Part shown: one piece after another, positions 2,815-25,688 of the stretch
How positions within the stretch are numbered: the first letter of the stretch is position 1
Layout of the letters: each line of letters opens with the position of its first letter
From: Alphaproteobacteria bacterium
GTDB lineage: Bacteria; Pseudomonadota; Alphaproteobacteria; Rs-D84; SZUA-605
DNA: 40,179 nt
Direction of reading: 5' to 3'
Assembly (NCBI GenBank): GCA_003250835.1
Contig: QKJL01000010.1
Location: 1 to 40,179, forward strand
The notes under the pieces: generated by a model
Databases searched by the model: none
What the model was told of the DNA's origin: nothing
What the model saw: only the letters and a program-made list of their open reading frames with translations
Translations under genes and position numbers: made by a program

Positions 2815-3026
2815 ACACCCTTTTTACCTTGATCTATATATCTTTCAATCATTTTAACCAAGGCGCGTTGACCTTCTAGGTAACGCAAGGTTTCATTTGA
2901 AACATCTGGACCAATCACGCGTTCAATTGTATAATTACGCAGGTGATCCATGACTCGTTTTCCACCTTCTGTTGAAAATGTTTTTGCGTATTCACGCATT
3001 AAGTTTTTATCTGTTATCTTTGTCAT
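2811..3026 (-). CDS. Bbp19-like small phage protein
   Basis: Small protein of 71 residues with the pattern of the Bbp19 family found beside portal genes in podovirus-like prophages: TFSTEGGKRVMDHL, then a C-terminal helix RYLEGQRALVKMIERYI. The function in the family is not established. I chose the ATG at 3026, which has AAGGAA seven bases upstream, over the GTG two codons earlier. The gene overlaps the 3' end of the portal gene by 20 bp, as in an operon. Its stop codon overlaps that of the convergent spoT gene. Its place directly after the portal matches phage gene order. The family assignment is from motif memory. Confidence 0.7.
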   Translation of the reverse strand: MTKITDKNLMREYAKTFSTEGGKRVMDHLRNYTIERVIGPDVSNETLRYLEGQRALVKMIERYIDQGKKGV

Positions 3027-4614
3027 CTTCACGTTCCTTTTCTTTTAACTTGATAATTTCCATTAATTCTTTTTCAATTTGTTCTGGTGACATATTTAAA
3101 ACAGCATCGGTAATTACTGGATTTAAATTTTCAAGCAACACTTTTACCTTTTCCATTTTTACATTATCTTCTGCTTGAATTAATTCAGTTGGAATTTCAA
3201 ATTTTCGTGCCATCCATTTTGCTACTTTATTTTTATTCAACTGATTATCCATTCCTGTCCCACAAGATTGCATTGCTTTCATCCACCCCATTACTGTTTC
3301 AATTTCTTGATTAATTTTTAATCGTGAAAGTGGAGATTGATAATTTAATCGCAACACGCGTCCATCAATTCCGATTTTTTCAATTTCTCCTCTGCGTTGT
3401 AGGATTGAGATTGCTCGGTTGATTAATGGGGTTAATAGTTCACTTTGTAAACGTCCATAAATTGCTCCGAATACTCGCATTGATTCTGCTGAGCGTTCCA
3501 TAACCTCTGTTGCGCTCATACGTCCTGACATTGTGATGGGACCTAATTTATCCACCATTAATGCTTTTCGGATTCCTGCCCTCATATCATCTAAGACTAA
3601 ATTAGATACATCAAAATTTGCAGCAGGTTTTAAAGGTGTTAATCCACTTGATCCCACAGCCTTTGGAATAATTGCCCCCGGCACCATTTTGATATTTGCC
3701 AAATTTAAGACACCATCGTCTTCTGCTTGCCAAACACCTGTCACCGCCAGTGAGGCATTTTTCAAAATCAATTCCACAACCTTATTTGCCGTTTTAATAT
3801 CTGGTAAAACTTTCATTACCGGCGAACGCCCATACAATTCACTTGGCACTTTTGCAAAACGAAAAACGATAAATGGAGATGTTTCAAATTCGCCTTTTCC
3901 CAAAATAATTGGAGCATTTATTTCCGCACCATATTGATTGCTTTCATTTTCAATAAAGGCTGTATATTCATATCCCATCCCTGTTTCTTTTTTAATCACA
4001 GCTTCAATTACTTTTATTTTTTGAGCGGGATTTTGTTTTAATTTTTGAAACAATTCTTTCGTAAATATTTCTGTCCCAAATTTTTTCGCAATCCCTTCTA
4101 TCGTTAATGTAATTTGACGAAAGATTGAATCTGTTTTCCCATCATTTGTTTCCGCAATTAATACTTCACTCATTGGAATTGCTTTGAACTGAAATGCAGA
4201 TGATTGTCCAATTTGAGCTTCTTCAAATAACAAACACGCTGTTCCGATGATTGATAAATCTACATAACATTGATGTAATTCTTGTGCCATATTTGATTGA
4301 TCAAAATTAATTTGTAATTTTTCTTCCACCTCGTTTGTGTATCCGAACAAAATTTCTTTTTCATTTTCTTTAATATCTGATCCGCATGATAATTCAAACC
4401 ATTTTGACCATGGAGGCGTTAATTCACTTAACAGGCTGGATGCCAATACATCCACCCCATCACCTGCTGTTGAATCATACAAATCTTTTTGTGCAGATCT
4501 TTTATCCATTTTTTCGCCATAATTTGGAATGGTATATTCATAACATTCATTCCATAACGTTTCCCATTTTGCACGTCTTTCACGTGCCTTTTTATATTCT
4601 GAAAAAATATTCAT
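3007..4614 (-). CDS. T7-type portal (head-to-tail connector) protein
   Basis: Protein of 535 residues, the usual length of the podoviral head-tail connector family (T7 gp8 type). The portal forms the dodecameric ring through which DNA enters and leaves the capsid. The N-terminus (ARRAKWETLW-like helix, YTIPNY, then DSTAGDGVDVLAS and LTPPWSKWFEL) is characteristic. The ending is rich in charged helices. A strong site, AAGGAG, precedes the ATG. The 21 bases around this start (4607-4627) are identical to those of the holin-like gene at 25228. The gene lies 12 kb from the other virion genes, behind ftsZ, ruvB, amiC and others. The reading frame is intact. No clear promoter is seen between it and the terminator just upstream. 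Confidence 0.9.
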   Translation of the reverse strand: MNIFSEYKKARERRAKWETLWNECYEYTIPNYGEKMDKRSAQKDLYDSTAGDGVDVLASSLLSELTPPWSKWFELSCGSDIKENEKEILFGYTNEVEEKLQINFDQSNMAQELHQCYVDLSIIGTACLLFEEAQIGQSSAFQFKAIPMSEVLIAETNDGKTDSIFRQITLTIEGIAKKFGTEIFTKELFQKLKQNPAQKIKVIEAVIKKETGMGYEYTAFIENESNQYGAEINAPIILGKGEFETSPFIVFRFAKVPSELYGRSPVMKVLPDIKTANKVVELILKNASLAVTGVWQAEDDGVLNLANIKMVPGAIIPKAVGSSGLTPLKPAANFDVSNLVLDDMRAGIRKALMVDKLGPITMSGRMSATEVMERSAESMRVFGAIYGRLQSELLTPLINRAISILQRRGEIEKIGIDGRVLRLNYQSPLSRLKINQEIETVMGWMKAMQSCGTGMDNQLNKNKVAKWMARKFEIPTELIQAEDNVKMEKVKVLLENLNPVITDAVLNMSPEQIEKELMEIIKLKEKEREDDKDNR

Positions 4615-5156: not shown

Positions 5157-6305
5157 TTATCCTTTAGATTCTATCAACGCCAATACGTCACGTTCTTCTT
5201 TAATAAAACGATTGTACACCGCATTTTTCACAGCATCATTTGAGGCTCTGAAATATTGATTTACTTTACGTCTTTCCGCGTATACAGCACGTGCAATTTC
5301 TTGTTTAGATGAACTTTCAGTTAATCCATAATTTGCCACAGCTTTACTGATTACGTTTACCCCACCACCAGGTCCATGTTGAGTTGATAAACTGAATGCC
5401 ATACTTTGTAATGCAAAGCTGTTATTAATTTTATCTTTAATTCCTTGTGGTAATTTACGACTATCATTAATACGGCGGAACATTGGTTTTCCAAATGCTT
5501 CGTTATGATGTTGTTCCATAATGTTTTGAAAATCTTTTTGACGTGCTAGGTTTAAAAATGCTCCTTCAAATTTTCCAATATTTCCATCACGAGCCTTACA
5601 ATTATATGCATCTTGGATCCCGCCTGCTGACTGTAGCGTTTCATAATATTTTGTATGATGTTGTGCTAAATATTTTAAGAACATACTGAGTGAGCTTACA
5701 CGTACCGCCAACTGATATTTACCATATGAACATCCACCGGCTGTATCATATCCCACGATATCATAACGTCCACGTGATTCATATTTTGCTGATAAATCAC
5801 CAACGCCATTAAACATATTTACGTTTACATTTCCACCTGATGGCATTACTTCTTCCACCAATGATAAACCACCTGATAATTTTTTACTTATTTCTTTTAC
5901 TGATGTATCTTTTGATACACGGATTTTAGGACATGTTGGATTTTCAATATTTTTTCCTGTCATTACTTCCGTTAATGGGGTTAAGATTTGTGATGTTCCT
6001 AAGATTGATAACACAATAATTAATATTTTGATTAAATCTTTTTCTTTCCCACGGAAATAATTTACAACAGACAACACCAAATATAATCCAGCAGATAAAT
6101 ATAAAAAATGTCGCAAATATGTAATGAATAAAGCGATTTGTTTTGCGTAACAATTTTGATCTTCTAAAAGATATTCTGATCCGAGATCCGTTACCTTAAA
6201 TCCCATTTCATTGAGATAGGTCATATCAAGATCACCCACTGCATACGCGGATACCGTTGTCATTAATGCGACAAGTGCCGTGAATACAATGGGTGATTTT
6301 TTCAT
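5157..6305 (-). CDS. Signal-peptide, two-TM (VirB2-like) protein fused to a VgrG3-type lysozyme-like domain
   Basis: Protein of 382 residues. Residues 1-22 are a Sec signal peptide. Residues about 55-125 hold two membrane helices separated by a short basic loop (NYFRGKEKDL), the layout of VirB2/TrbC-type pilins. After a linker, about 175-380 resemble the peptidoglycan-hydrolase domain found at the C-terminus of VgrG3-like T6SS spikes and in some phage proteins, with the signature KYESRGRYDIVGYDTAGG followed by CSYGKYQLA; the glutamate of YES is the likely catalytic acid. The protein should cut peptidoglycan while membrane-anchored. It sits two bases downstream of ftsZ, which suggests a role at division, or else a remnant secretion or phage-injection role. 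The domain call is from motif recognition. Confidence 0.7.
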   Translation of the reverse strand: MKKSPIVFTALVALMTTVSAYAVGDLDMTYLNEMGFKVTDLGSEYLLEDQNCYAKQIALFITYLRHFLYLSAGLYLVLSVVNYFRGKEKDLIKILIIVLSILGTSQILTPLTEVMTGKNIENPTCPKIRVSKDTSVKEISKKLSGGLSLVEEVMPSGGNVNVNMFNGVGDLSAKYESRGRYDIVGYDTAGGCSYGKYQLAVRVSSLSMFLKYLAQHHTKYYETLQSAGGIQDAYNCKARDGNIGKFEGAFLNLARQKDFQNIMEQHHNEAFGKPMFRRINDSRKLPQGIKDKINNSFALQSMAFSLSTQHGPGGGVNVISKAVANYGLTESSSKQEIARAVYAERRKVNQYFRASNDAVKNAVYNRFIKEERDVLALIESKG

Positions 6306-10338: not shown

Positions 10339-10479
10339 AAAAAAATCCCGCACACAGCGAGACTTTTTACTAGAAGGAGAGAGAACCCCGAAGCCTTAAG
10401 AGGAGAGAGAAAATAAGGAGGGAATTAAAAATTCCTAACTTCGGGGCTGTATTCGATCTGACGATCGAACTTTTTATAG
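10339..10479 (-). ncRNA. Candidate anti-Shine-Dalgarno small RNA (3'-UTR type)
   Basis: Minus-strand RNA of about 140 bases directly after the stop codon of the gene ending at 10483. It begins with the hairpin TTCGATC-GTCA-GATCGAA (10452-10469). Next comes a long hairpin closed by CCCCGAAG/CTTCGGGG (10386-10446), whose loop carries CCCTCCTT and TCTCTCCTCTT. A further single-stranded CTCTCTCCTTCT follows, then a terminator stem (10343-10365) with seven T. CUCCU copies mimic the 16S rRNA 3' end and could bind ribosome-binding sites of mRNAs, as proposed for the cuckoo/CcsR sRNAs of alphaproteobacteria. Only a weak -10 (TATAAA) lies in front, so it may be cut from the upstream mRNA. Confidence 0.6.
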
Positions 10480-14246: not shown

Positions 14247-14711
14247 TTATTTATAGTAAATTGTTACGTTATTTACCTGACCTTCGGCACATTGAGCTGT
14301 TAATGTGTTTGGTGCAGATCCATTAATGAAAATACTTTCAGCATCTTCCCATGTTACTGTTCCAAAATAAATACAGTCTGGACGAGACATATTTGGATAT
14401 GTGATTGCGAATTCTTCATTTGAATTAGCTGGACGTACTACAATTTCTTGGCCAAATGGATTTGTTTTGTTTTTAATTCCACCCATACGTTCCAAATATC
14501 CGATTGTTAGACCTTCGTATGATGTTTTACCCGCAAACAATGTACGGATATTATCCACCAATTCACTGATTTCATCGATTGATTGCATACGGAGCAATTT
14601 ATTACGGGCTTTTGTATAGATCCCGATTGATCCCACTGTTAAAATTCCCATGATTCCGATCACGGCCAATGTTTCAAGTAATGTACGCCCACTTTCACGT
14701 GTGTTATGCAT
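14247..14711 (-). CDS. Type IV prepilin-like protein
   Basis: 154 residues. The N-terminus ESGRTLLETLAVIGIMGIL is a class III (prepilin peptidase) signal. The conserved G is followed by RTLLE with glutamate at +5 and a hydrophobic helix. A globular domain follows with a C-terminal cysteine pair (DCIYF and AQCAEG) likely to form the disulfide loop of pilins. AGAGGAG precedes the ATG. No other pilus assembly gene is in the window, so it may be a lone minor pilin or pseudopilin. It is cotranscribed with amiC. The family call is firm; the system it belongs to is unknown. Confidence 0.85.
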   Translation of the reverse strand: MHNTRESGRTLLETLAVIGIMGILTVGSIGIYTKARNKLLRMQSIDEISELVDNIRTLFAGKTSYEGLTIGYLERMGGIKNKTNPFGQEIVVRPANSNEEFAITYPNMSRPDCIYFGTVTWEDAESIFINGSAPNTLTAQCAEGQVNNVTIYYK

Positions 14712-14794: not shown

Positions 14795-16282
14795 TTAGTC
14801 GTTGGACCAGCCCACTTTTTTCAAGAAGTCAGCATAAGAACCTTCGAATAAGAACACTTTTCCGCCATCAAATACGATTAAGCGTGTTGCCAAGTGATGT
14901 AAGAACATTTCATTATGGGTTACGAGTGCCACCGCCCCATCAAAATTATCAATCGCCGCAATCAACGCATCACATGATTCAGCGTCCAAGTGGTTTGTCG
15001 GTTCGTCGAGTAATAAGAAATTTGCTGGGTGTAATAAGATCTTTCCGAGTGATACACGGCTTTTTTCGCCCCCTGAGAGCACAGAGATTGGTTTCTTGGC
15101 TAAATCCCCACTGAACATCATGTTTCCACACATACGGCGAACTTTTCCATAATCTAGTGCTGGGTCGGCTGATTGGATTTCATCTTCTACCGTCATCTTA
15201 GGATCCAAGCGTTCAATATTTGTTTGCCCGAAGTATCCTTTTGCACAGTGCATATGATCCACAATTTCCCCGCTGTCCGGTGTGAGTTCGCCAGCGATTA
15301 ATTCCAATAACGTTGATTTACCTTTTCCATTCTTTCCAATAATTCCGATACGGTCGCCCTTTTCAATTGTGATTGATAGGCCTTTGATTAATTGGTTTTC
15401 CGGTGTATAGCCGAATGAAAGGTTATCAATTTTACAGATATTACGCGCACGGAATTCCGCAGCATTAAATTCAAAGCCCAATGTTTGGATTGTCTTTAGC
15501 TCTTCCAGTACTTTTTCCTTCTTTAGCTTTTTAATCTTTGATTGTACTAATGACGCCAGCGACGCTTTTGCACGGAAACGATTAATATAGGCTTCGATTT
15601 CTTGACGTTTCTTTGCTGCGTTGGCTGCTGTACGTTGATACATCTCTTCTTCTTCCGCAATTTGACCATATAGCTTTATCGTATCGCCTTCTGTCTTACG
15701 GATTGTTTGACGGTGTACTGCCATTGTATGTGTTGTAATACTGTTCATGATATTACGGTCATGGGTGATCAGGATTAATTCGCTTGGCCATTTCTTTAGG
15801 AATGATACTAACCAGCGGATCGATACAATGTCCAAATAGTTTGTTGGTTCGTCCAGTAATAACAGGTCTGGTTCAGATACCAATACCTTTGCCAGGTTTA
15901 GACGGATTTGATATCCCCCTGAGAAGTCTGAAGGTGCTTTATGGAAGTCTTCTGTTGAAAAACCTAATCCAGATAAGATCTTTTCCACTTTCCATACGTT
16001 ATATTCATCTTCTTCACGTAATCCGAGGCAACCTTCTTCCAATACTGTTGGTTGGGTAAAATGGAGATGTTGTTCCAAGTATCCGATACGGTAATCACGA
16101 GATGTTTCAATTTTTCCTTGGTCTGGTTCTAATTCACCTGTCAAAATACGGAGTAAAGTTGATTTACCCGTTCCATTTTGTCCGATTAGTCCAACGCGTT
16201 CCCCGTCTTTGATTTCCATTGATGTTTCGTCGAAGATAATTTGATCCCCAAACGCCAATGATAAGTCTTTGATTTGTATCAT
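14795..16282 (-). CDS. ABC-F family ATPase
   Basis: 495 residues with two ABC domains and no membrane segments, the ABC-F layout. Domain 1: Walker A GQNGTGKST, signature SGGYQIRLNLA, Walker B LLLLDEPTNYLD. A charged helical linker of about 80 residues follows (the P-site tRNA interaction motif region, IEAYINRFRAKASLASLVQS). Domain 2: GKNGKGKST, LSGGEKSRVSLG, LLLDEPTNHLD. ABC-F proteins act on the ribosomal E site as translation factors or resistance proteins. The short length, without the C-terminal extension of Uup, fits a YbiT/EttA-like housekeeping member. AAGGG precedes the ATG. Confidence 0.92.
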   Translation of the reverse strand: MIQIKDLSLAFGDQIIFDETSMEIKDGERVGLIGQNGTGKSTLLRILTGELEPDQGKIETSRDYRIGYLEQHLHFTQPTVLEEGCLGLREEDEYNVWKVEKILSGLGFSTEDFHKAPSDFSGGYQIRLNLAKVLVSEPDLLLLDEPTNYLDIVSIRWLVSFLKKWPSELILITHDRNIMNSITTHTMAVHRQTIRKTEGDTIKLYGQIAEEEEMYQRTAANAAKKRQEIEAYINRFRAKASLASLVQSKIKKLKKEKVLEELKTIQTLGFEFNAAEFRARNICKIDNLSFGYTPENQLIKGLSITIEKGDRIGIIGKNGKGKSTLLELIAGELTPDSGEIVDHMHCAKGYFGQTNIERLDPKMTVEDEIQSADPALDYGKVRRMCGNMMFSGDLAKKPISVLSGGEKSRVSLGKILLHPANFLLLDEPTNHLDAESCDALIAAIDNFDGAVALVTHNEMFLHHLATRLIVFDGGKVFLFEGSYADFLKKVGWSND

Positions 16283-16309
16283 TTCATACCCTTTTTTATT
16301 GTTAGGGCT

Positions 16310-16338
16310 ATCCTATCCGATCTTTCGGGATTTTACAA
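16310..16338 (-). promoter_or_regulatory. Promoter of the ABC-F gene
   Basis: Minus-strand TTGTAA and TAGGAT with a 17-base spacer, about 28 bases before the ATG. It overlaps an imperfect inverted repeat around CCGATCTTTCGG. Confidence 0.55.
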
Positions 16339-16348
16339 GGTTTAATGA

Positions 16349-17218
16349 CTATACCTTAAATCCACTTGTATCTACTGTATATGCACTCTGTTTTACTTTA
16401 TTATTAGGATGGCGGGTTGGGATTGGTTTATTGGGTGTTAAGATGGCTCCGGCGACGGCGTCCAGTCCATCATCCTTTCCATTGACGTTTTCGGGGCTAA
16501 ATTCTTCCATTTCTTGCAGGAAGAATGTTTGCGTGACCGATTGATGGAGCAATAAAAAACCCGCGTGTAGCGGGGCGTCAAATGCATCGAGGATGCGTTC
16601 GGATTTCTTTTGTTTTTGGTGCCACGGCTGGATTGTGATCATTTGCCCTTTTTCTTGGCTGTATTTCCGCATGAATTCGACCAGGAAGGCGCCTATGCCA
16701 TTGGTTTCGATATGAATATGCGTTACAAAGTTCTTTTCCATGATTTCCAAGACTTGGGTACATTGTTCATGGGCACTGTCGTTTGTATTGTGTACTTTTA
16801 GGTATATGACCTCTTGAATGTACATTTTTCCGAGTGCGTCCCAGAAGATGATTGCCAAGACACTGTTGTCCCGGCCTGTTTTTCCGAAGGCTGGGTCCCA
16901 GAAGCAGTTAACATGAGTTAATTCGATATCGCCCAGGTATAATTTAAATTTTCCATTGCTTTCTATGTATCTTAAATCGTTTTGATAAATATTAAAGTGA
17001 TTGGGATTTAATATACCCTCTGAAAGCGTCACAGGTTGTAATAACATTTGTGAAGAAAATTTGCGATTTCCTGAGCGAATCCGGATTTCTTTGATTTTTT
17101 CGAGTGAAAAACGTTCTGGCCAGGTAGGTCGAGTCGCATTATCTAGGACAGGTATCCTAAGTTCGTCAAAACCACGTAGAAAAGGCGCAGATTTTACACG
17201 TTTGTAGCGTGTGATCAT
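16349..17218 (-). CDS. Phage terminase large subunit, nuclease part (split gene)
   Basis: This is the C-terminal half of a T7-like large terminase. The start of the homology is SAPFLRGFDELRIPVLD with RPTWPERFS and KFSSQMLLQPV. The RNase H-like nuclease then shows its acidic residues in CFWDPAFGK, HIETNG and GKDDGLDAV, so the cutting domain looks complete. I chose the ATG at 17218, with AAGGA about ten bases upstream. A frame open from a GTG at 17272 would start inside the sRNA hairpin. The ATPase half is encoded 268 bases upstream. The break falls in the linker between the domains, so two separate chains could still work together. Confidence 0.8.
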   Translation of the reverse strand: MITRYKRVKSAPFLRGFDELRIPVLDNATRPTWPERFSLEKIKEIRIRSGNRKFSSQMLLQPVTLSEGILNPNHFNIYQNDLRYIESNGKFKLYLGDIELTHVNCFWDPAFGKTGRDNSVLAIIFWDALGKMYIQEVIYLKVHNTNDSAHEQCTQVLEIMEKNFVTHIHIETNGIGAFLVEFMRKYSQEKGQMITIQPWHQKQKKSERILDAFDAPLHAGFLLLHQSVTQTFFLQEMEEFSPENVNGKDDGLDAVAGAILTPNKPIPTRHPNNKVKQSAYTVDTSGFKV

Positions 17219-17250
17219 TTTATGCGAATCCTTGAAATTATTGAGGAAAT

Positions 17251-17363
17251 AAAAAAAGAAGTCCCAAGGCACTTAGAAGGAGAGAAGGAGGAAAGGAGAA
17301 AGAAGTGCCTTAGGATCTTTTAAGTTCTATGCATTGAGCATAGCCCATTTGTCATGGGATAGA
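17251..17363 (-). ncRNA. Promoter-driven small RNA with anti-Shine-Dalgarno loop, inside the split terminase gene
   Basis: Minus-strand RNA of about 113 bases with three hairpins in a row: CCCAT-GACAA-ATGGG (17344-17358), CTATGC-TCAAT-GCATAG (17327-17343), and a 9-bp stem AAGGCACTT/AAGTGCCTT (17266-17311). The 28-base loop of the third is pure pyrimidine and carries TCTCC, CCTCCTT and TCTCCTT. It ends in a run of seven T. The loop repeats the 16S rRNA anti-Shine-Dalgarno sequence, the hallmark of alphaproteobacterial cuckoo-type sRNAs, and could block ribosome-binding sites of target mRNAs. The purine-rich virion ribosome-binding sites nearby (AAAAGGAG) would be matching targets; that is inference. 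Confidence 0.7.
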
Positions 17364-17369
17364 ATCGCC

Positions 17370-17397
17370 ATTATAGACTTCTGTATGCGATTGTCAA
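17370..17397 (-). promoter_or_regulatory. Consensus sigma-70 promoter of the sRNA
   Basis: Minus-strand TTGACA and TATAAT, both perfect, with a 16-base spacer. The predicted start is near 17363. It is among the strongest-looking promoters in the window and fires inside the terminase gene. Confidence 0.85.
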
Positions 17398-17486
17398 CCC
17401 CCTAATTTAATTTTTTATTTAGCCTTATCAGCTATCTTATATATGGGGAGGGTTTTATTCTTTTCAAGTCCTCTGATTAAATTTTT

Positions 17487-18095
17487 TTATTTTATTTCAT
17501 AAATGGTATCAAATGTATGGGGTGTACCGATATAGAGCTGGAGCCCACCGGGGACGATAATGAAGTCTAATTCCGCAAGTTTTTCACGTAATTCTTCCCT
17601 TTTCAGCTTGGTATTGCTGTTTTTAGGCACCTCCACATCGTCACAAATAATCACGTCCGCCCGGGTTCCGGTGATATTTCCTTGTAATCCGGCAGCAATC
17701 ATAGAGGGATCCCGTAATTCTTTGTCACGTTGGATGGTAAATTGGTCGGATGCCCATTGTTCTTTCTTTTTAGGGACGATCCCCTCTAATAACGGGTGGC
17801 GTTCAATAATATGCTTTACATTGCGTACCATTTTTTTCGCCAGCGCATGATCAGCCGCCAAAATTAAGATCCGCGTATTGGGGTCTTTGTAAAATAGCCA
17901 GGCACAGAATAATCCGACGATACTTGATTTTCCTGCACTTCTGAATGCCATCAGTAATCCTTGGCGGTTCGGGCTTTTATAGATCTTTTCCAGCCATAAG
18001 CCCATCCATACATGGTGGCGCGGGGTTTGAAAGTCTTGTCCGGTGTTCCATTGTTCTATGAATTTAAGTAACCCTATCTGATGTTGTTTAGTCAT
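17487..18095 (-). CDS. Phage terminase large subunit, ATPase part (split gene)
   Basis: 202 residues covering the packaging motor ATPase. It has a Walker A variant FRSAGKSS (R52-S58), a Walker B strand DVIICDDVE with D152, D153 and E155, and the coupling motif LQLYIGTPH near the end. The frame then closes four codons later (IYEIK-stop), exactly where relatives continue into the nuclease domain encoded at 16349-17218. The ATG overlaps the tail-fibre stop by eight bases, so translation is coupled. The large terminase pumps DNA into the prohead. No small-terminase gene is visible. A truncated, non-functional product is the alternative. Confidence 0.85.
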   Translation of the reverse strand: MTKQHQIGLLKFIEQWNTGQDFQTPRHHVWMGLWLEKIYKSPNRQGLLMAFRSAGKSSIVGLFCAWLFYKDPNTRILILAADHALAKKMVRNVKHIIERHPLLEGIVPKKKEQWASDQFTIQRDKELRDPSMIAAGLQGNITGTRADVIICDDVEVPKNSNTKLKREELREKLAELDFIIVPGGLQLYIGTPHTFDTIYEIK

Positions 18096-18786
18096 AGTTA
18101 ACGGTTAATGTGGCTGTTTCCGATATCTCTCCGTAATTTTCTGTCAGCCCTGCTGTTTCCGTTACCCAGCCCATTTCATCAAATGAGTCAGGGTGATTAG
18201 ATCGAATAAGTTCTATCAGGTTTGATACCAGTCCTAATACCCCTGCATCAGCTGAGCCTGTTAATACATTCAGGATGTTTTGATACACTGTTTCTGCTTT
18301 TGTCGCTGATTGAGCCACTTCCCCTGCTAATTCAGTGATATTTACCTCTGTATTTTCTAGCCCATTTTCTTCTTCATTCCAGACAATCGCCTTGCCTGAC
18401 TCTGGAATTGGGAGTTCCATTTGATCTGCTGCGTGATTAATTGGCTGGATCGGTACCCTATTTAACTGTTCTTGCATATCTTGGAGGCAGGCAGTTAAGT
18501 AATCCAAATCAAAATTCAGGTCTGAGGCTTTGATAATTGTGCTTTGCTGAAAATCTGTTTGACGCTGGATATTTAATGTGCGGACAATGATAATCTGTGA
18601 TCCGCTTTCTGGGGCGGTTATAAATTCGATATTATTTTCATTTAATGTAAACCCTGATGTCATTTCAGTGCCATTTAAGTATACCTTTAGATTACTGGTA
18701 TCAAATACACGAAAAGTGAAATCAAAGACTGTTTGAGTCCCATCACCTGTATATTCATGTCGGGGAATTGTATGTGTTATCGTCAT
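18088..18786 (-). CDS. T7-type tail fibre N-terminal domain protein
   Basis: 232 residues. The first 110 match the T7 tail-fibre attachment domain: YTGDGTQTVFDFTF, VYLNGTEMTSGFTL, IEFITAPESGSQI and VRTLNIQRQTDF, then a helix ending in LQDMQEQLNRVP. This part fixes the fibre to the tail. The remaining 120 residues are helical and short, without the long receptor-binding region of T7 gp17 (553 residues). The virion would therefore have stub fibres, or the receptor-binding protein is encoded elsewhere. Two bases separate it from the internal protein gene and it overlaps the terminase start. Confidence 0.8.
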   Translation of the reverse strand: MTITHTIPRHEYTGDGTQTVFDFTFRVFDTSNLKVYLNGTEMTSGFTLNENNIEFITAPESGSQIIIVRTLNIQRQTDFQQSTIIKASDLNFDLDYLTACLQDMQEQLNRVPIQPINHAADQMELPIPESGKAIVWNEEENGLENTEVNITELAGEVAQSATKAETVYQNILNVLTGSADAGVLGLVSNLIELIRSNHPDSFDEMGWVTETAGLTENYGEISETATLTVNYD

Positions 18787-18787
18787 C

Positions 18788-19249
18788 TTAAAATCCTCCG
18801 ATCAATTTTGATAAATCTTCAACTGCACTCATCCCCTCTTGTGTGACTGTATATTGCGAGTTAATCAAATCCCCTTTCTTTTTCAACAGATTTCGTTGAG
18901 TGATATAATCCAAATCAGCATCAATATTTTTTATACTGAAATTGCTGAGGATACGACTGTCATCTATTTCTTCTGCTGATTCCTTTTGATACCCTTTGAT
19001 GAGTGATGTATTTGATTGCCCTGCATTGCCAACGCCACTTCCTCCGAAGATTGCTTTTTGAGATGCTATTTTTCTTTTTAATAAATTTTTACGCTCACGT
19101 TCTTCGATTTCCAGTTTCTTTTTTTCTTCTTCTTTTGCAAGGGCGGCTTTTTCACGTTCATATTTAATTTGGGCATCATATTGAGCTTCTTTATTTTTTC
19201 TATCTTTACGATCGTAATAGATTGTTGCGGCGCTTTCGACTGCTCCCAT
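18788..19249 (-). CDS. Putative podoviral internal virion protein
   Basis: 153 residues. A coiled coil rich in Lys, Glu and Arg (about 10-65) is followed by a small conserved-looking segment, AIFGGSGVGNAGQSNTSL, and a helical end. Proteins with this AxFGxSGV/GxxSxxxL pattern lie between tail tubular protein B and the fibre gene in podovirus-like prophages, where T7 has its internal core proteins. It is far shorter than T7 gp14-gp16 together. AAAGGAGT lies upstream of the ATG. Function assigned by place and pattern only. Confidence 0.6.
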   Translation of the reverse strand: MGAVESAATIYYDRKDRKNKEAQYDAQIKYEREKAALAKEEEKKKLEIEERERKNLLKRKIASQKAIFGGSGVGNAGQSNTSLIKGYQKESAEEIDDSRILSNFSIKNIDADLDYITQRNLLKKKGDLINSQYTVTQEGMSAVEDLSKLIGGF

Positions 19250-19272
19250 TTTTTTACTCCTTTATTTTTTAT

Positions 19273-21156
19273 TTAAACTGCTTGGATTTTAGATGCTGTG
19301 CTTAAGATGCAGGATGCATACGGTAGATTACTTTGAATTTTCCACAGTGGTATTTCAAAGCTTTGACGCCATCCAATTGCCTTGACCGCAATATCTTTGT
19401 TTACCGCTGATAATCCTGTATCCAGTACTTTATTATCCAATGGAATTTCCCTCATCCCATTGCCGGTATCAATTTCAATTGTTTTCGTTTCATGTAATCT
19501 GACAGTTAATTCAATCAGACGATATTTTTTAGGAATTTGATTTCCTTGAATCATAACAGGCATTGGTGCAATGGTATGGGTATATGATTTTCCCACATGG
19601 ATTTCATAACTTTCTTCATCCAATGTTAATTCATCGGATTCAATTGTTTGGGTTCCTATAAAATTTCCATCTGTTAAGATCTGTATTTCTTCATCTATCA
19701 GATGAGATAATCCCGATATACGACTGGTTGCTGTTTCACTGCTTTCGATAATTGTGCTATCGGTATAAATCCCCTCTTCAAATCGTTCCAGGTAATAAGA
19801 TCCATTTCGTTCGGTAACTACATATGTTTTGGTATCACATACCGCGACCGAGATGTATGCCCCGCTGGTTTCATATGCTGCCCAGGCTGTCATTCCATAT
19901 TTCTTATTCGATGTCATCACCGCCATTGTTCCATCATTCATCACAATATACAATTGACGAACGTTATCATTATAATCTTGATCCATTGGATATTTCATCA
20001 AATGTTGTGATAAGATTGCAATGTCATCAGATGTATAATTTTCATTAATTTCCCCATAGGTAAATTCACGAATTTCTACATTGTTTTTTGCTATAAAAAT
20101 CGTACTCCCTTCTACTTGTTTGGGTGGTAAATATCTGTCCGTTGGCGATCCAATATTTGTTTGACGCTTTAATTGAATTGACGATGGCGTTAATGGTTCC
20201 CCGACCACAATCCATTCAGATGCAGAGGTCAAGACTTGCAAATGACGTCCTGAGAAAATTGTTTGGATTTCTTCTTTTCCTTCTGCCAATAATGTGAATT
20301 CAATTGCTTCATCATCTAGGCCTTCACCAAAATCAAAGTTAAATAAATCTGATGTTTTGGAAAACCATATTTTATTTGGGTATTCTTTTGAGCCTCCGAT
20401 TACAAGACGGTCTTGATGAAAGGCTACGGAAGATGGGTATCCACGTGTTTCCGAAAATAATGGTTCTTGCCATTGATTCGATGATTCGAGAGATGTTAAA
20501 TCCTTTCGAATGATTGCCGTTGCGGATACTGTTGATTCAATACTGCTGATTTCAAGCTCTCCTTCATTTAATCTGAAACGTTCGCCGATGTGTTTAGATA
20601 TAAAAAAAGCCGCTGAAGCGGTCAAAGTAACTGTTCCAGTTGTATCACTTGGAGTTAAGATTATATTTTCCGTATCTTCGAATTGATCATACAGTTGCAT
20701 CACACGTTCATCTTCAGCGATTACATATTCCCAATTTTTTAATGTAAATTCAGTCTCTGATTCCTTTATCAATTGTTTGGATTTGAAATCTGAATGCACC
20801 AAGATCAGTTCATCAAATCTTTGCGTCCATTGAATCTTATTTAAAGATTCTTCTGTCCATTCAGTTGTTAATGTTGCAACCTTTTCTCCGTCTTTATAAA
20901 TTGTGCATAATAAATCGGAAAGCACAAGCACGTAGTCTTGATCTTGTGCTGCGAAGGCAATTAAACGGGATTTTCCATTTAATGTATCCATATAACGTGT
21001 CCCATTTCGACGCGCAATTCCACCGGTTGGTAAGATACTGACATTGCGTGCCAATAATAATCCTTGGTGATATGCTGATAAATCACCACGTGCGGATAAT
21101 TTTTCAGATACTTCCCCAAAGGAAAATGAATTTTGTGTATAATAAAATTGTGCCAT
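19273..21156 (-). CDS. T7-like tail tubular protein B (nozzle)
   Basis: 627 residues. The N-terminus (NSFSFGEVSEKLSARGDL, then RNVSILPTGGIARRNGTRY) is the typical start of gp12-like nozzle proteins, and the body is beta-rich, with GYPSSVAFHQDRLVIGG as another family hallmark. In T7 gp12 forms the hexameric end of the short tail. It lies four bases after the tail tubular A gene, in T7 order, and its frame is intact over its full length. Confidence 0.8.
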   Translation of the reverse strand: MAQFYYTQNSFSFGEVSEKLSARGDLSAYHQGLLLARNVSILPTGGIARRNGTRYMDTLNGKSRLIAFAAQDQDYVLVLSDLLCTIYKDGEKVATLTTEWTEESLNKIQWTQRFDELILVHSDFKSKQLIKESETEFTLKNWEYVIAEDERVMQLYDQFEDTENIILTPSDTTGTVTLTASAAFFISKHIGERFRLNEGELEISSIESTVSATAIIRKDLTSLESSNQWQEPLFSETRGYPSSVAFHQDRLVIGGSKEYPNKIWFSKTSDLFNFDFGEGLDDEAIEFTLLAEGKEEIQTIFSGRHLQVLTSASEWIVVGEPLTPSSIQLKRQTNIGSPTDRYLPPKQVEGSTIFIAKNNVEIREFTYGEINENYTSDDIAILSQHLMKYPMDQDYNDNVRQLYIVMNDGTMAVMTSNKKYGMTAWAAYETSGAYISVAVCDTKTYVVTERNGSYYLERFEEGIYTDSTIIESSETATSRISGLSHLIDEEIQILTDGNFIGTQTIESDELTLDEESYEIHVGKSYTHTIAPMPVMIQGNQIPKKYRLIELTVRLHETKTIEIDTGNGMREIPLDNKVLDTGLSAVNKDIAVKAIGWRQSFEIPLWKIQSNLPYASCILSTASKIQAV

Positions 21157-21160
21157 GACT

Positions 21161-21730
21161 TTAACCTCTTACATCTGTGAGTGGGTAGGATGTGATGTGT
21201 TCCGTTGTTTCTTGTTGGCTGTCGATTAAGCGTGCTGATTTTAATTCTTTGTCGGCTTGCTTGCCTAAAAAATCTGCGAGTGTTAAATTTTCTGTTAAAA
21301 TTGGTGCAAATTCTGCTGACAATTTTAGACGTAATACGTTTTGGAAAAATGCTGGTAAATATTCTTCTGAGACACGGGCGATATATTTCATTTTCACATC
21401 CTCTGCATTTGCATACAGCTTATCCCCGATGATCTTATATTCTAAGCCTTGGGATGTTGTTGAATAGCCTGCTGAGATAATTCGCAAAACGTCACTTGGT
21501 AATTGAGATACATAATCATAGTCAGCCAATGGTTCGTCCGTTGTTTGGGCAAGATCGGCAAACTTTGTTGCAAATGTCCATGGATGTGATGACAGTAATC
21601 CATCCTTTGTTGGATCATACAATGCTGCTGCGACACGGGCTTCGGCACTGCCATCTTCGAAAGAACTGATTGTATTGGCGCCAATTTTAATCAAGCTTTG
21701 CGCACAGATATCAATTGATGTTGTGGTCAT
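21161..21730 (-). CDS. T7-like tail tubular protein A (adaptor)
   Basis: 189 residues, near the 196 of T7 gp11. The protein forms the ring between portal and nozzle. Visible pattern: an N-terminal helix IDICAQSLIKIGANTISSF, then YDPTKDGLLSSHPWTFATK and YDYVSQLPSDVLRI, all typical of the family. The ATG follows AAAAAGGAGT. It is the first gene of a five-gene run (adaptor, nozzle, internal protein, fibre, terminase ATPase) with spacings of 2-23 bases or overlaps. It is divergent from the plus-strand gene at 21797. Confidence 0.85.
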   Translation of the reverse strand: MTTTSIDICAQSLIKIGANTISSFEDGSAEARVAAALYDPTKDGLLSSHPWTFATKFADLAQTTDEPLADYDYVSQLPSDVLRIISAGYSTTSQGLEYKIIGDKLYANAEDVKMKYIARVSEEYLPAFFQNVLRLKLSAEFAPILTENLTLADFLGKQADKELKSARLIDSQQETTEHITSYPLTDVRG

Positions 21731-21796
21731 TTTATTAACTCCTTTTTATTTATTTTTAAATATGTTATACTTTTTTGAAAATGAGAAAGGTGTCTG

Positions 21797-22321
21797 ATGA
21801 AACAGAAAATTATTTATTTTTTGGCTTTAATTGTTATTGTTTTAGGCTTTACTTTTAAACATGATAAAAAAACTCTTTCCCTCCCTTCTTTTCCGTTGTC
21901 TGACTATATTCATAATGAATATGAAGGATATATGGGCAAGTACTTTTTAAATGATCACGAACGCATTATTGGTGCAGATATTAATTGGAATGATCAAGAA
22001 AAAGGGAGTATTTACATCCTTGAACGCGACTTAGAAAAACCAGGTCATACATTATGGATGTGTTCTGAACCTCTTAAAAAAAGTAAATTAGGTGGTTATA
22101 TTTTCCAATGCGCTTCGCCTGATTATGTTGGAGATGTTTATATCAAATTAGATATGACTTATTTAGATGATTCAAAAATAGAAAAAATTATCTATGTTTC
22201 CATTACTGATAATCAAGAATGTATTGAAAAATATCATACGCTTAGTGATTTTGAAAAATATTGTAATCCTAAAACCAATCAGAATATTAAATATTTAAAA
22301 CTGTATAATCTCCACTTTTAA
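21797..22321 (+). CDS. Signal-anchored protein of unknown function, opposite strand within the virion cluster
   Basis: 174 residues. An N-terminal hydrophobic helix (KIIYFLALIVIVLGFTF) is a signal peptide or membrane anchor. The rest is hydrophilic with four cysteines (WMCSEP, FQCASP, QECIEK, KYCNP) that suggest a disulfide-bonded periplasmic fold. No family recognised. AAAGGTG lies before the ATG and a TATACT -10 at 21766-21771 gives it its own promoter, though the -35 is weak. It runs against the virion genes and meets the endolysin gene tail to tail. This is the layout of a 'moron' cargo gene of phages. Confidence 0.75.
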   Translation: MKQKIIYFLALIVIVLGFTFKHDKKTLSLPSFPLSDYIHNEYEGYMGKYFLNDHERIIGADINWNDQEKGSIYILERDLEKPGHTLWMCSEPLKKSKLGGYIFQCASPDYVGDVYIKLDMTYLDDSKIEKIIYVSITDNQECIEKYHTLSDFEKYCNPKTNQNIKYLKLYNLHF

Positions 22322-22325
22322 TTCT

Positions 22326-22964
22326 TTAATAACTATTTCCTCTTTTGATCCAACCATTCTTAAATTTTTTTTGGCTTGGATCTTTTTCAATAATTTCTCT
22401 GTATCGATTTATTACATTATGCTTAAATCCTTTATTTATTTCATCTATTCCCATTTCATTTATTTTATTTAATGTTTGAGATCCTAATATCCCATCAGCT
22501 TTTACACCGATCGCTTTTTGCAAATTTATAATTGCTGTTGGTTGTCCTTGATTTACAGCATTATCAAATACCTTATCCCTAATTCCATCTGGTAATTTAT
22601 CAATATTCGTTTTTTTATAATAATCTCTGTACAGTAAATAATTTACTCTCTCTTTTGTCAGATTTTTTATATCTTCATCAGGGTACCATTTCTTTGTGAT
22701 CCCATACTTTGTTTCTTTACCTTTATCATTTGTTTGATTTGAATATCCACCTTCAAAAGCTGATGTCTTTTTTAACGCTTTATGAAAAATAGAATCTGCT
22801 TCCATTTTTTTTGCTAATTTAGGATCAATATCTGTACCATATTTTTGTATCATTAGTTGATCACCCATATTCCACTCTTTTTTCATACGGCCAGTGGCAT
22901 CGTATTTTACTTCTTCGCCAGTAATCCTTCCCCACATATCTGCTATATAACTAAACCAACTCAT
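22326..22964 (-). CDS. Endolysin, glycoside hydrolase 108 type
   Basis: 212 residues. The N-terminal catalytic domain has the GH108 signature SAFEGGYSNQTNDKG with glutamate E as acid, then KYGITKKWYP and DKLPDGIRDKVFDNAVNQG. A C-terminal peptidoglycan-binding segment follows (LQKAIGVKADGILG). It should cut the peptidoglycan glycan chain to release particles. I chose the ATG at 22964 (MSWFSYIADMWG) with AAGG just upstream. The earlier ATG at 22988 lies inside a perfect hairpin. In T7 lysis genes sit elsewhere, so its place between capsid and tail genes is unusual. Confidence 0.8.
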   Translation of the reverse strand: MSWFSYIADMWGRITGEEVKYDATGRMKKEWNMGDQLMIQKYGTDIDPKLAKKMEADSIFHKALKKTSAFEGGYSNQTNDKGKETKYGITKKWYPDEDIKNLTKERVNYLLYRDYYKKTNIDKLPDGIRDKVFDNAVNQGQPTAIINLQKAIGVKADGILGSQTLNKINEMGIDEINKGFKHNVINRYREIIEKDPSQKKFKNGWIKRGNSY

Positions 22965-22987
22965 TTCATTTTCCTTATTCATATTCA

Positions 22988-23015
22988 TGACAGTTCTTAA
23001 TTAAAAGAACTGTCA
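22988..23015 (-). repeat. Perfect 28-bp inverted repeat before the endolysin gene
   Basis: TGACAGTTCTT and AAGAACTGTCA, 11-bp arms around AATTAA. No T tract follows on the minus strand, so it is not a standard terminator. It could be an operator, an RNase processing hairpin or a translation-control hairpin over the early start codon. Confidence 0.75.
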
Positions 23016-23395: not shown

Positions 23396-24199
23396 TTAGA
23401 TTTTTACTGCGCCATTTGGATCAATTAATGCAGCCCCTTGGCTCATGCAATTTGATACAAAGTGAGCTGCTCGTTCGCCATGCCATGATACATCCGTTGC
23501 CACTTCTGATCCACTTGCGTGTCCCAATGCTGTGCGGTGATAGATATAGCATTCACGGTTTCCGTCTACTTCTGGTAAATCGTTATACAAGATCCAAATC
23601 ACACCCATCCATTTGCGGCATTCTGCGCCACCGATTAATGGATAGTTTTCGCCTACGTAGTCTGCGTTTGTGAATTCATCGATGTTTAACAATTCGCTGA
23701 ATTGATGCACGCCAATTACACCAAAACGTTGTCCATCGTCTGGTACATCTTGGGCATTTAGTATTTCCAACGCACTCATGATTTTTGCTTTTGTCAAACC
23801 TGCTGAACCTGCTGCTACTTCTTGTGTTGATCCTGATAATGCATTTAAGATCAATTCATCTGTTTTGCGACCCAATGCGTATGCACCTGCTGATGCGACT
23901 ACGCGGCGTTCGTCATGATTGATTTTTAATTCATCTAATGCATCTACCCAATCACCTGCATAGTAATCAGCCAATACACATTCCACTGGTGTGTGATCCA
24001 GATTCATCACCGGCACCATTCCATGACGTGCTTTTGTAGAGGCTGTTCCTTTACCCACTTTTTGGAATGTTGTTGATGTTCCGATCACGTTATTTTTTGA
24101 TCGAATTGTTCCGCGTAATTTAGTCCCCATTTGTTGGTATGCCAAATGTACGTCGGCTTCGAATTGTTTAATAAATGCTTGGTCAATTGTTGTCGACAT
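23396..24199 (-). CDS. Major capsid protein (Phage_capsid_2-like)
   Basis: 267 residues. It has the pattern of podovirus-type capsid proteins of the Phage_capsid_2 group: an N-terminal FIKQFEADVHLAYQQMG, TTFQKVGKGTASTKA, then DYYAGDWVDALDELK and the C-terminal GHASGSEVATDVSWHGER. It builds the HK97-fold shell. AAAAAGGAG lies upstream. The frame is complete. Terminators lie on both sides, so its mRNA may be made and ended on its own, as befits the most abundant virion protein. Confidence 0.85.
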   Translation of the reverse strand: MSTTIDQAFIKQFEADVHLAYQQMGTKLRGTIRSKNNVIGTSTTFQKVGKGTASTKARHGMVPVMNLDHTPVECVLADYYAGDWVDALDELKINHDERRVVASAGAYALGRKTDELILNALSGSTQEVAAGSAGLTKAKIMSALEILNAQDVPDDGQRFGVIGVHQFSELLNIDEFTNADYVGENYPLIGGAECRKWMGVIWILYNDLPEVDGNRECYIYHRTALGHASGSEVATDVSWHGERAAHFVSNCMSQGAALIDPNGAVKI

Positions 24200-24311: not shown

Positions 24312-25031
24312 TTAGTCATTTTCCTTGGCATAGATTTTTTCAAATCCTTGGCGGATTTTATCCGTGTATTCAGGATCTTGATCTCGCCAGTATTTGGGAT
24401 TAGCCATCATCTTTTTCAAATTATCTTCTGTTAAATCTTCTGTTCCGCCAATCCCGTCTTTGATAATTTTGGGTTCAGTTGATTGCATCATTTCATACAG
24501 AGAGATAATTCCATCGGCATTTTGACACACCACATCCAACGAATTTTCCGTCATTTTCTTTCGCCCGAATGCCAATACTTGGTGTGCGATTTCATTGAAA
24601 CGTTCTTCCGATCCAAAGTAGGTATGTAATTTTTGCAATTCTGTTTTTTCTTGCAACTCTTGTTTCATTTTTTGAGCCAATGGAGATAGTTTTTCTGATG
24701 CTAAGTCATAAACAAGCTTCACCTGATCTTTTGTGAAACCTGCGGCTAAGAGTTTTTCATTTACATCTATATCCGCTTGAATTCCGCCTTCTTCGAACAT
24801 GTCATTATAGCCTTCAACACTTTCTGGCACCCCGCGAATTGATTCGATTTTCTTCAAATCGTCTTCGGTTAGATTTTCTTTTGGAATCAAATGTGAACAG
24901 CCTAATTTCTTTTCCAGTTCTGTATATGATTTTATTAAGGCATCCATACGAATTTCGCCAGTTTCACTGTTCCAAAACTTTTCCGGAATTTCGGTTGGAC
25001 GTTCTAATTTATTTTCTATGATTTCTGTCAT
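24312..25031 (-). CDS. Capsid assembly scaffold protein (T7 gp9-like)
   Basis: 239 residues, acidic and helical. The N-terminus reads IPEKFWNSETGEIRMDALI followed by KSYTELEKKLG, a hallmark of podoviral scaffolding proteins, and the end (MANPKYWRDQDPEY) is the family's shell-binding tail. The scaffold guides capsid assembly and then leaves the head. AAAAGGAG lies before the ATG. It stands directly upstream of the capsid gene, as in T7. Confidence 0.85.
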   Translation of the reverse strand: MTEIIENKLERPTEIPEKFWNSETGEIRMDALIKSYTELEKKLGCSHLIPKENLTEDDLKKIESIRGVPESVEGYNDMFEEGGIQADIDVNEKLLAAGFTKDQVKLVYDLASEKLSPLAQKMKQELQEKTELQKLHTYFGSEERFNEIAHQVLAFGRKKMTENSLDVVCQNADGIISLYEMMQSTEPKIIKDGIGGTEDLTEDNLKKMMANPKYWRDQDPEYTDKIRQGFEKIYAKEND

Positions 25032-25232: not shown

Positions 25233-25688
25233 TTACTCCTTATTTTGATAGAAAAAAAAGGGATCAATCTGAATGATTAATCCCATGTGATGAGTCCATA
25301 GTGGAAACGTATCGTTTTTGTGATGTCTTATTGCCCCGTGTGTTAGATCATCCAATAATCCTTTTAATGCCCTGCCCGCCACGCGTGAACAGGTTTGAAA
25401 TTCAGGGTCAGTCGCCATCACTCTTTGTAATTGTTTTGCTTTGTATTTCCAGCATTCAAAAATTTCTTTATCCATACAGATCGCTTCAATTTTTTGATTT
25501 GGATTTTTTGTATGACGATTCATGATTACCGCGGCGATTGCTTCTTTTACTCTTAGACGCTCTCCCCTTGTCTCTCCATAAATCGTTTGTGCCATAATGT
25601 ATTGAGTTCGTGTATTCCGATTAATTTCTTTTTGAATTTTGGCTGCATAAACTTTTTGTGCCATGGGATTTGTTAGATCTAAATCCAT
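25233..25688 (-). CDS. SleB-type cell wall hydrolase
   Basis: 151 residues of the Hydrolase_2/SleB family: TIYGETRGERLRVKEAIAAV followed by IMNRH, then FECWKYK, and a C-terminal ALKGLLDDLTHGAIRHHK with a degenerate G-H-FY ending (IQIDPFFFY). The glutamate in GETRGE is the expected catalytic acid. It should degrade peptidoglycan, making a second lytic enzyme beside the GH108 endolysin. AAGGAT lies before the ATG, and four bases separate it from the preceding gene. Confidence 0.8.
   Translation of the reverse strand: MDLDLTNPMAQKVYAAKIQKEINRNTRTQYIMAQTIYGETRGERLRVKEAIAAVIMNRHTKNPNQKIEAICMDKEIFECWKYKAKQLQRVMATDPEFQTCSRVAGRALKGLLDDLTHGAIRHHKNDTFPLWTHHMGLIIQIDPFFFYQNKE

Follow-up and report, generated by a model that had tools for sequence, protein, structure and literature searches.

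The large terminase of a podovirus-like gene cluster is encoded by two separate genes in a 40,179-nucleotide stretch of alphaproteobacterial DNA (order Rs-D84, lineage SZUA-605; GenBank assembly GCA_003250835.1, contig QKJL01000010.1, positions 1 to 40,179, forward strand), which is referred to here as the window. This two-chain terminase is real, ancient and maintained, and it belongs to a candidate podovirus-like gene transfer agent (GTA). The explanation considered likely is that a domesticated T7-type cluster, probably a GTA, has been inherited vertically in the order, that its terminase was broken once, and that the two chains together rebuild the motor.

The split terminase genes

Two open reading frames (ORFs) on the minus strand code for a large terminase of the T7 type, an ATPase half at 18095-17487 and a nuclease half at 17218/17272-16349. 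The halves cover adjacent stretches of one profile (Table 1), so that almost no terminase sequence is missing, and the nuclease half also matches the domain profiles PF17289/PF22530. The ATPase core contains a Walker A motif (FRSAGKS), a Walker B motif (CDDVE) and a coupling motif, or motif C (GTPH), and in aligned order members residues F51, R52, G55, K56, S57, D152, D153, E155, G190, T191, P192 and H193 are invariant. In the RNase H-like nuclease, the metal-binding acids D126, E189, D267, D268 and D271 are likewise invariant; the alignments comprised 16 and 20 order members. The one feature of T7-type terminases that is absent is the presence of both domains in one polypeptide, there being two ORFs throughout the order. 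Translation of the nuclease half could begin at GTG 17272 (307 aa) or at ATG 17218 (289 aa), which has the sequence AAGGA ahead of it at 17233-17229 and is the more likely start. A preliminary description, made from the letters of the window, had proposed two ORFs retaining all key residues, with this ATG and AAGGA for the nuclease protein, and the profile matches and invariant catalytic residues bear it out. No second terminase of the same family was found in the genome from which the window derives, which gave single matches only. An IMG/VR contig (L022) contains the identical split at 100% identity to the window.

Position of the break

The preliminary description had located the split exactly at the border between the motor and nuclease domains, four codons after the coupling motif region. 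Instead, GTPH is followed by 9 more residues of the ATPase half in the window, and by 7-23 residues, mostly 8, in relatives; as the chain stops right past this motif, the proposed border is off by 50-60 residues, or one subdomain. The narrow range of tail lengths fits one ancestral break. In phage T4 gp17, the coupling motif lies at the junction of two ATPase subdomains, NsubI and NsubII, the latter serving as a transmission that links the ATPase to the nuclease domain (PMC3012670). By analogy, the break most likely falls within the motor itself, where NsubI meets NsubII. With a break some 8 residues past the coupling motif, the tail of NsubII must go with the nuclease, and about 50-60 motor residues (PFLxGF...WPERF...KFxSQMxLxP) are probably carried on that chain.

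The model of the nuclease chain matches the PhiV-1 terminase and the RB49 gp17 nuclease in a structure search, while that of an intact relative matches the PhiV-1 terminase (8dgc_E, Foldseek E 2e-29) and T4 gp17 (2.4e-12). PDB entry 8dgc, the best structural match of both models, shows a terminase in complex with the immune sensor Avs3.

Distribution and origin of the split

The split was followed through 201 genomes of the order, representing 23 genera and mostly 0.5-1.1 Mb in size, 126 of them of high quality. The ATPase half is present in 183 of these (122/126 of high quality), with every listed frame 198-249 aa long and relatives 46-63% identical across the order; the nuclease half is present in 180 (121/126). 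Both halves occur in 176 genomes, the ATPase half only in 7, the nuclease half only in 4 and neither in 14, these joint counts being obtained by combining two lists, with one unlisted genome taken as G200. Incomplete assemblies account for some of the absences.

Outside the order the gene is whole. In a sample of 385 genomes from the class, strong relatives beyond the order are frames of about 400-670 aa, bar one at a contig end, and keep one terminase gene of about 500 aa. A single ORF is found at 41 of 42 IMG/VR loci, the sole split one being the window's own sequence, and at 74 of 80 loci in named genomes, the other six being order members (G002, G005, G007, G010, G013 and G023). The single-ORF loci include Magnetospirillum, Azospirillum, Terasakiella, Defluviicoccus, Caenispirillum and many metagenome-assembled genomes from the gut. 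The order-wide census thus upholds the earlier suggestion that the break reflects more than chance, and the sharing of the split by order members strongly supports a genuine two-chain terminase; the finding that would have told against it, intact relatives with this copy alone broken, was looked for, and intact genes were found only outside the order.

When 104 ATPase domains are placed on a tree, the state 'split' or 'whole' switches once, at a branch with support of 96, against a mean of 25.5 switches when labels are shuffled. A single origin is the simplest reading of these sequences, although long branches in the tree leave the placement of family f4 unsure. On this reading, a single break just behind the coupling motif would have occurred in the order's common ancestor. 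A related podovirus-like cluster with an intact terminase is found in roughly 50 of the 385 sampled alphaproteobacterial genomes, usually in one copy (L115-L193), and the domesticated state may predate the order. PBP1 lies upstream in four gut-type loci with an intact terminase, as it does in the window.

Selection and retention

Both halves are kept by purifying selection. Rough estimates by the Nei-Gojobori method, from pairs with a synonymous divergence (dS) below 2 in genus g5, give median ratios of nonsynonymous to synonymous substitution (dN/dS) of 0.114 for the ATPase, 0.179 for the nuclease, 0.062 for the portal and 0.050 for the capsid. In the order census the two halves are mostly retained or lost together. 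One locus (L099, in G006) has in-frame stops in the ATPase N-terminus (at about 9595, a TAG for an expected Trp) and in tail tubular protein B (at about 6972), which may be signs of decay, sequencing error or recoding.

Proposed rebuilding of the motor from two chains

We infer that the two chains assemble, package DNA and serve a GTA. Chain 1 would be the RecA-like ATPase core (NsubI), and chain 2 would carry the end of the transmission subdomain (NsubII) at its N-terminus, followed by the nuclease/translocation domain. Docking of chain 2 on chain 1 through the NsubII segment, at the portal, would rebuild the motor non-covalently, with the nuclease domain gripping and cutting the DNA. In AlphaFold models, the segment matching FLxGF...SQMxLxP has a predicted confidence score (pLDDT) of 81-95 within the intact relative (L027), and the NsubII-like segment one of 57-76 in the window's nuclease chain modelled alone; the lower values are expected if the segment docks on the ATPase core.

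Several considerations weigh against this proposal. The pLDDT comparison spans different alignments and serves as supporting evidence only. No small terminase was identified in the cluster. One f6 genome (G005, 99% complete) has the ATPase half, portal, capsid and tail genes, and no nuclease half was found in it, even by profile search. The particle, its packaged DNA and the interaction between the chains are predictions from the genes. Finally, T4 gp17 cut at the domain linker is reported to retain ATPase and nuclease activities and to lose translocation (PMC3012670), which means that two chains need not package. Whether they still package DNA is the principal doubt.

It is thus possible, though a good deal less probable than a rebuilt motor, that the halves are kept without joint packaging, in DNA-free or repurposed particles, with the ATPase and the nuclease each working on its own in a task such as DNA processing or defence. 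The behaviour of the cut T4 enzyme, the f6 genome with an ATPase and no detectable nuclease, and the drifting apart of the halves in the genome all favour such a role. Yet the cluster has kept its portal, scaffold, capsid and tail genes, and purifying selection on portal and capsid is strong; the halves mostly stay or go together; the ATPase, coupling and nuclease residues are still invariant; and T4 was cut at the domain linker, not at the NsubI/NsubII junction.

Promoter and stem-loop RNAs between the halves

The gap between the two terminase genes of the window contains a sigma-70-type promoter and a putative small RNA gene (Table 1), whose 19-bp stem is capped by a pyrimidine loop containing many anti-Shine-Dalgarno repeats. 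The corresponding gaps of G001, G006 and G003 hold promoter-like sites and the same kind of stem-loop, and in many cases such RNAs have a promoter upstream. In family f3, two of these RNAs lie downstream of the ATPase half, with a loop near-identical to that of the window, and in some f5 genomes the cluster begins with similar RNAs (L110 16752, 16815; 16745-16783). Members of the family also lie at L095 5339-5390 and 6713-6771.

A model of the first of the two f3 RNAs behind the ATPase half, R1, finds at most one match per genome, in 13 of 59 genomes. In most f2 and f3 genomes the match is 100-800 bp downstream of the ATPase half; in G017 and in the window it lies elsewhere, and in the window R1 picks out a second RNA of the kind. 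Six of the 11 stem pairs have changed on both sides, with a covariation score of 0.51 versus 0.22 in shuffles. No convincing copy of R1 was found in 95 loci with an intact terminase, and the RNA family has no match in Rfam. A miniature inverted-repeat transposable element or other repeat was rejected as the source of the gap insert, since a DNA search found no second gap copy in its own genome. Insertion of the RNA gene may have caused the break, and the two events could have occurred in either order.

An extension of the two-chain proposal would make the stem-loop RNA part of the packaging machine of a new podovirus-type GTA, either as a scaffold in the manner of the phi29 packaging RNA (pRNA) or by timing the synthesis of both chains through its anti-Shine-Dalgarno loop. 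The role given to the RNA is speculative, and this version is considered improbable.

The phage-derived cluster

The window also contains a set of phage-derived genes for head, tail and lysis functions (Table 1), the order of which is largely kept in relatives. The capsid gene is found in 178 of the 201 order genomes, nearly always once, at 66-74% identity. In the window the portal gene is surrounded by spoT, ftsZ, ruvB and other host genes, some 12 kb away from the nuclease half. In relatives it adjoins or lies near the nuclease half. In family f6 (G005, G009 and G012; L098) the ATPase half is immediately followed by the portal gene, as seen in G005. A protein with a VgrG3-like C-terminal domain (5157-6305, minus strand), encoded two genes away from the portal, may be a component of the particle or of its lysis functions.

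Table 1. Features of the split terminase, its gap and the surrounding cluster in the window.
Feature	Coordinates	Strand	Details
Portal (head-tail connector)	3007..4614	-	PF12236, E 2.9e-111
Second stem-loop RNA, model R1	10382..10448	-	E 2e-7 in own genome
Terminase nuclease half (probable NsubII tail and RNase H-like nuclease)	16349..17272	-	phrog_38 positions 468-712, E 1.1e-34
Putative small RNA gene	17254..17321	-	Stem-loop with pyrimidine anti-Shine-Dalgarno loop (CTTTCTCCTTTCCTCCTTCTCTCC), then T run; fold z -5.2
Sigma-70-type promoter, TTGACA-N16-TATAAT	17370..17397	-	Perfect; sole 12/12 match in 16000-22500
Terminase ATPase half (NsubI core)	17487..18095	-	202 aa; phrog_38 positions 274-458, E 1.6e-41
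Tail-fibre N-terminal-like (T7) protein	18088..18786	-	PF03906, E 3.5e-6; overlaps ATPase start
Conserved cluster protein, 153 aa	18788..19249	-	Same position in relatives
Tail tubular protein B-like	19273..21156	-	phrog_376, E 7e-119
Tail tubular protein A-like	21161..21730	-	phrog_394, E 9e-47
GH108 endolysin	22326..22988	-	PF05838, E 1.2e-19
Conserved protein between capsid and tail genes, 82 aa	23031..23279	-	41-58% identity in relatives
Major capsid protein	23396..24199	-	PF19821, E 5e-73
Scaffold (T7 capsid assembly)	24312..25031	-	PF05396, E 1.3e-11
Cell wall hydrolase (Hydrolase_2)	25233..25688	-	PF07486, E 6e-9
Conserved cluster protein, 91 aa	25692..25967	-	phrog_29007, E 4e-24

Two features expected of a GTA are found. 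The head-tail cluster is inherited vertically in the host lineage, as capsid and ATPase genes occur in 178 and 183 of the 201 genomes, mostly in single copy, and the tree follows host families. The cluster is interleaved with host genes, and those of the window include no recognised integrase or phage replication gene; such genes may lie elsewhere in the genome. The cluster is therefore put forward as a candidate podovirus (T7)-like GTA. The preliminary description had suggested that a two-chain terminase could alter how DNA is recognised or cut, for example toward non-specific headful packaging, a conjecture that the sequence neither favours nor disfavours. A loss of packaging specificity is plausible given this look of a domesticated phage, although no sequence feature ties such a loss to the split.

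An ordinary infectious temperate phage that happens to have a split terminase would also possess head, tail and lysis genes, and IMG/VR lists related contigs as viral. This reading is nevertheless very unlikely, as the genes are near-universal in the order, mostly single copy and track host families, portal and nuclease sit among ftsZ, ruvB, spoT and dnaB, and the window has no recognisable integrase or phage replication gene.

Distance between the halves

The halves lie 0.2-15.6 kb apart across the order. The gap between matched stretches is shortest, at about 0.2 kb, in the window and G003. It measures 0.4-0.6 kb in G001 and G006, 3-8 kb in f3 and about 3.4 kb in most genomes of f5, and reaches 15.6 kb in G032. 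The f3 gap holds FtsZ, and that of f5 a DnaB helicase and a helix-turn-helix gene on the opposite strand. A prepilin-like gene is found near the nuclease half in several families (window 14247-14711, minus strand; L094 14149, L096 10949, L099 11679, L109 11034).

It might be supposed that splicing, an intein, ribosomal bypass or frameshifting across the gap still yields a single terminase. In the window, f2 and f4 the gap is short (0.2-0.6 kb) and holds structured RNA, and introns are reported to be common in phage genes (PMC11878797). With kilobases that include host genes between the halves in f3 and f5, some of these genes on the opposite strand, joining at the level of RNA or translation would be impossible on this gene arrangement. 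The gap has, in addition, its own promoter and a terminator-like hairpin and gives no Rfam intron match, so that rejoining by intron, intein or frameshift is ruled out in practice and is given hardly any weight. Least probable of all is that a single decaying prophage suffered a local lesion or was misassembled. This could be imagined from a draft assembly of 39 contigs and the intact gene of relatives outside the order, but it is ruled out by the order census, in which other genomes share the split with nearly the same end point, by the identical IMG/VR record, and by dN/dS values well below 1.

Implications for packaging motors

In models of the packaging motor, the ATPase and nuclease domains must be tied in order to turn ATP hydrolysis into DNA movement, and the engineered T4 split supports this need. 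Around 200 sampled species seem to run, or at least to retain, a two-chain version, which amounts to a natural experiment on motor coupling and suggests that the motor chain can be broken at the NsubI/NsubII junction. The analysis also adds a new podovirus-like GTA candidate that spans an order of alphaproteobacteria whose genomes do not exceed about 1.1 Mb, and a family of cluster-linked RNAs that is absent from Rfam.

Comparison with known systems

Searches of the literature, mostly of freely accessible papers, on split terminases, podovirus-like alphaproteobacterial GTAs and Rs-D84/Enterousia phages found no description of this system. FpGTA of Faecalibacterium likewise has its genes in separate operons, but its host is a Firmicute, no split of its terminase homologue is mentioned, and packaged host DNA has been detected for it (PMC12946183). 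The RcGTA-like elements (Rhodogtaviriformidae) are likewise vertically inherited phage head-tail genes of alphaproteobacteria under purifying selection. The RcGTA terminase is of the headful type and related to that of P22 (PMC7947584), whereas the terminase here is T7/podovirus-like and two-chain, in a cluster whose particles are predicted. Judged by family assignment, the PF19821 capsid, the PF12236 T7 portal and the T7 tail proteins found here argue against head-tail genes of the RcGTA type.

A close likeness is to the T7 gp19/PhiV-1-type large terminase (phrog_38), which both halves resemble in sequence and fold, with profile matches to T7 gp19 and PhiV-1 TerL, and the window likewise has a T7-like portal, scaffold and tail tubes. 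The known members are one polypeptide, in contrast to the two genes here, broken past the coupling motif. Experimentally split T4 gp17 (PMC3012670) also separates motor and nuclease into two chains, both of which are expected to remain catalytically active. T4 gp17 was cut at the linker, with a reported loss of translocation, whereas the natural break most likely lies upstream of that site, at the NsubI/NsubII junction, and is held by selection.
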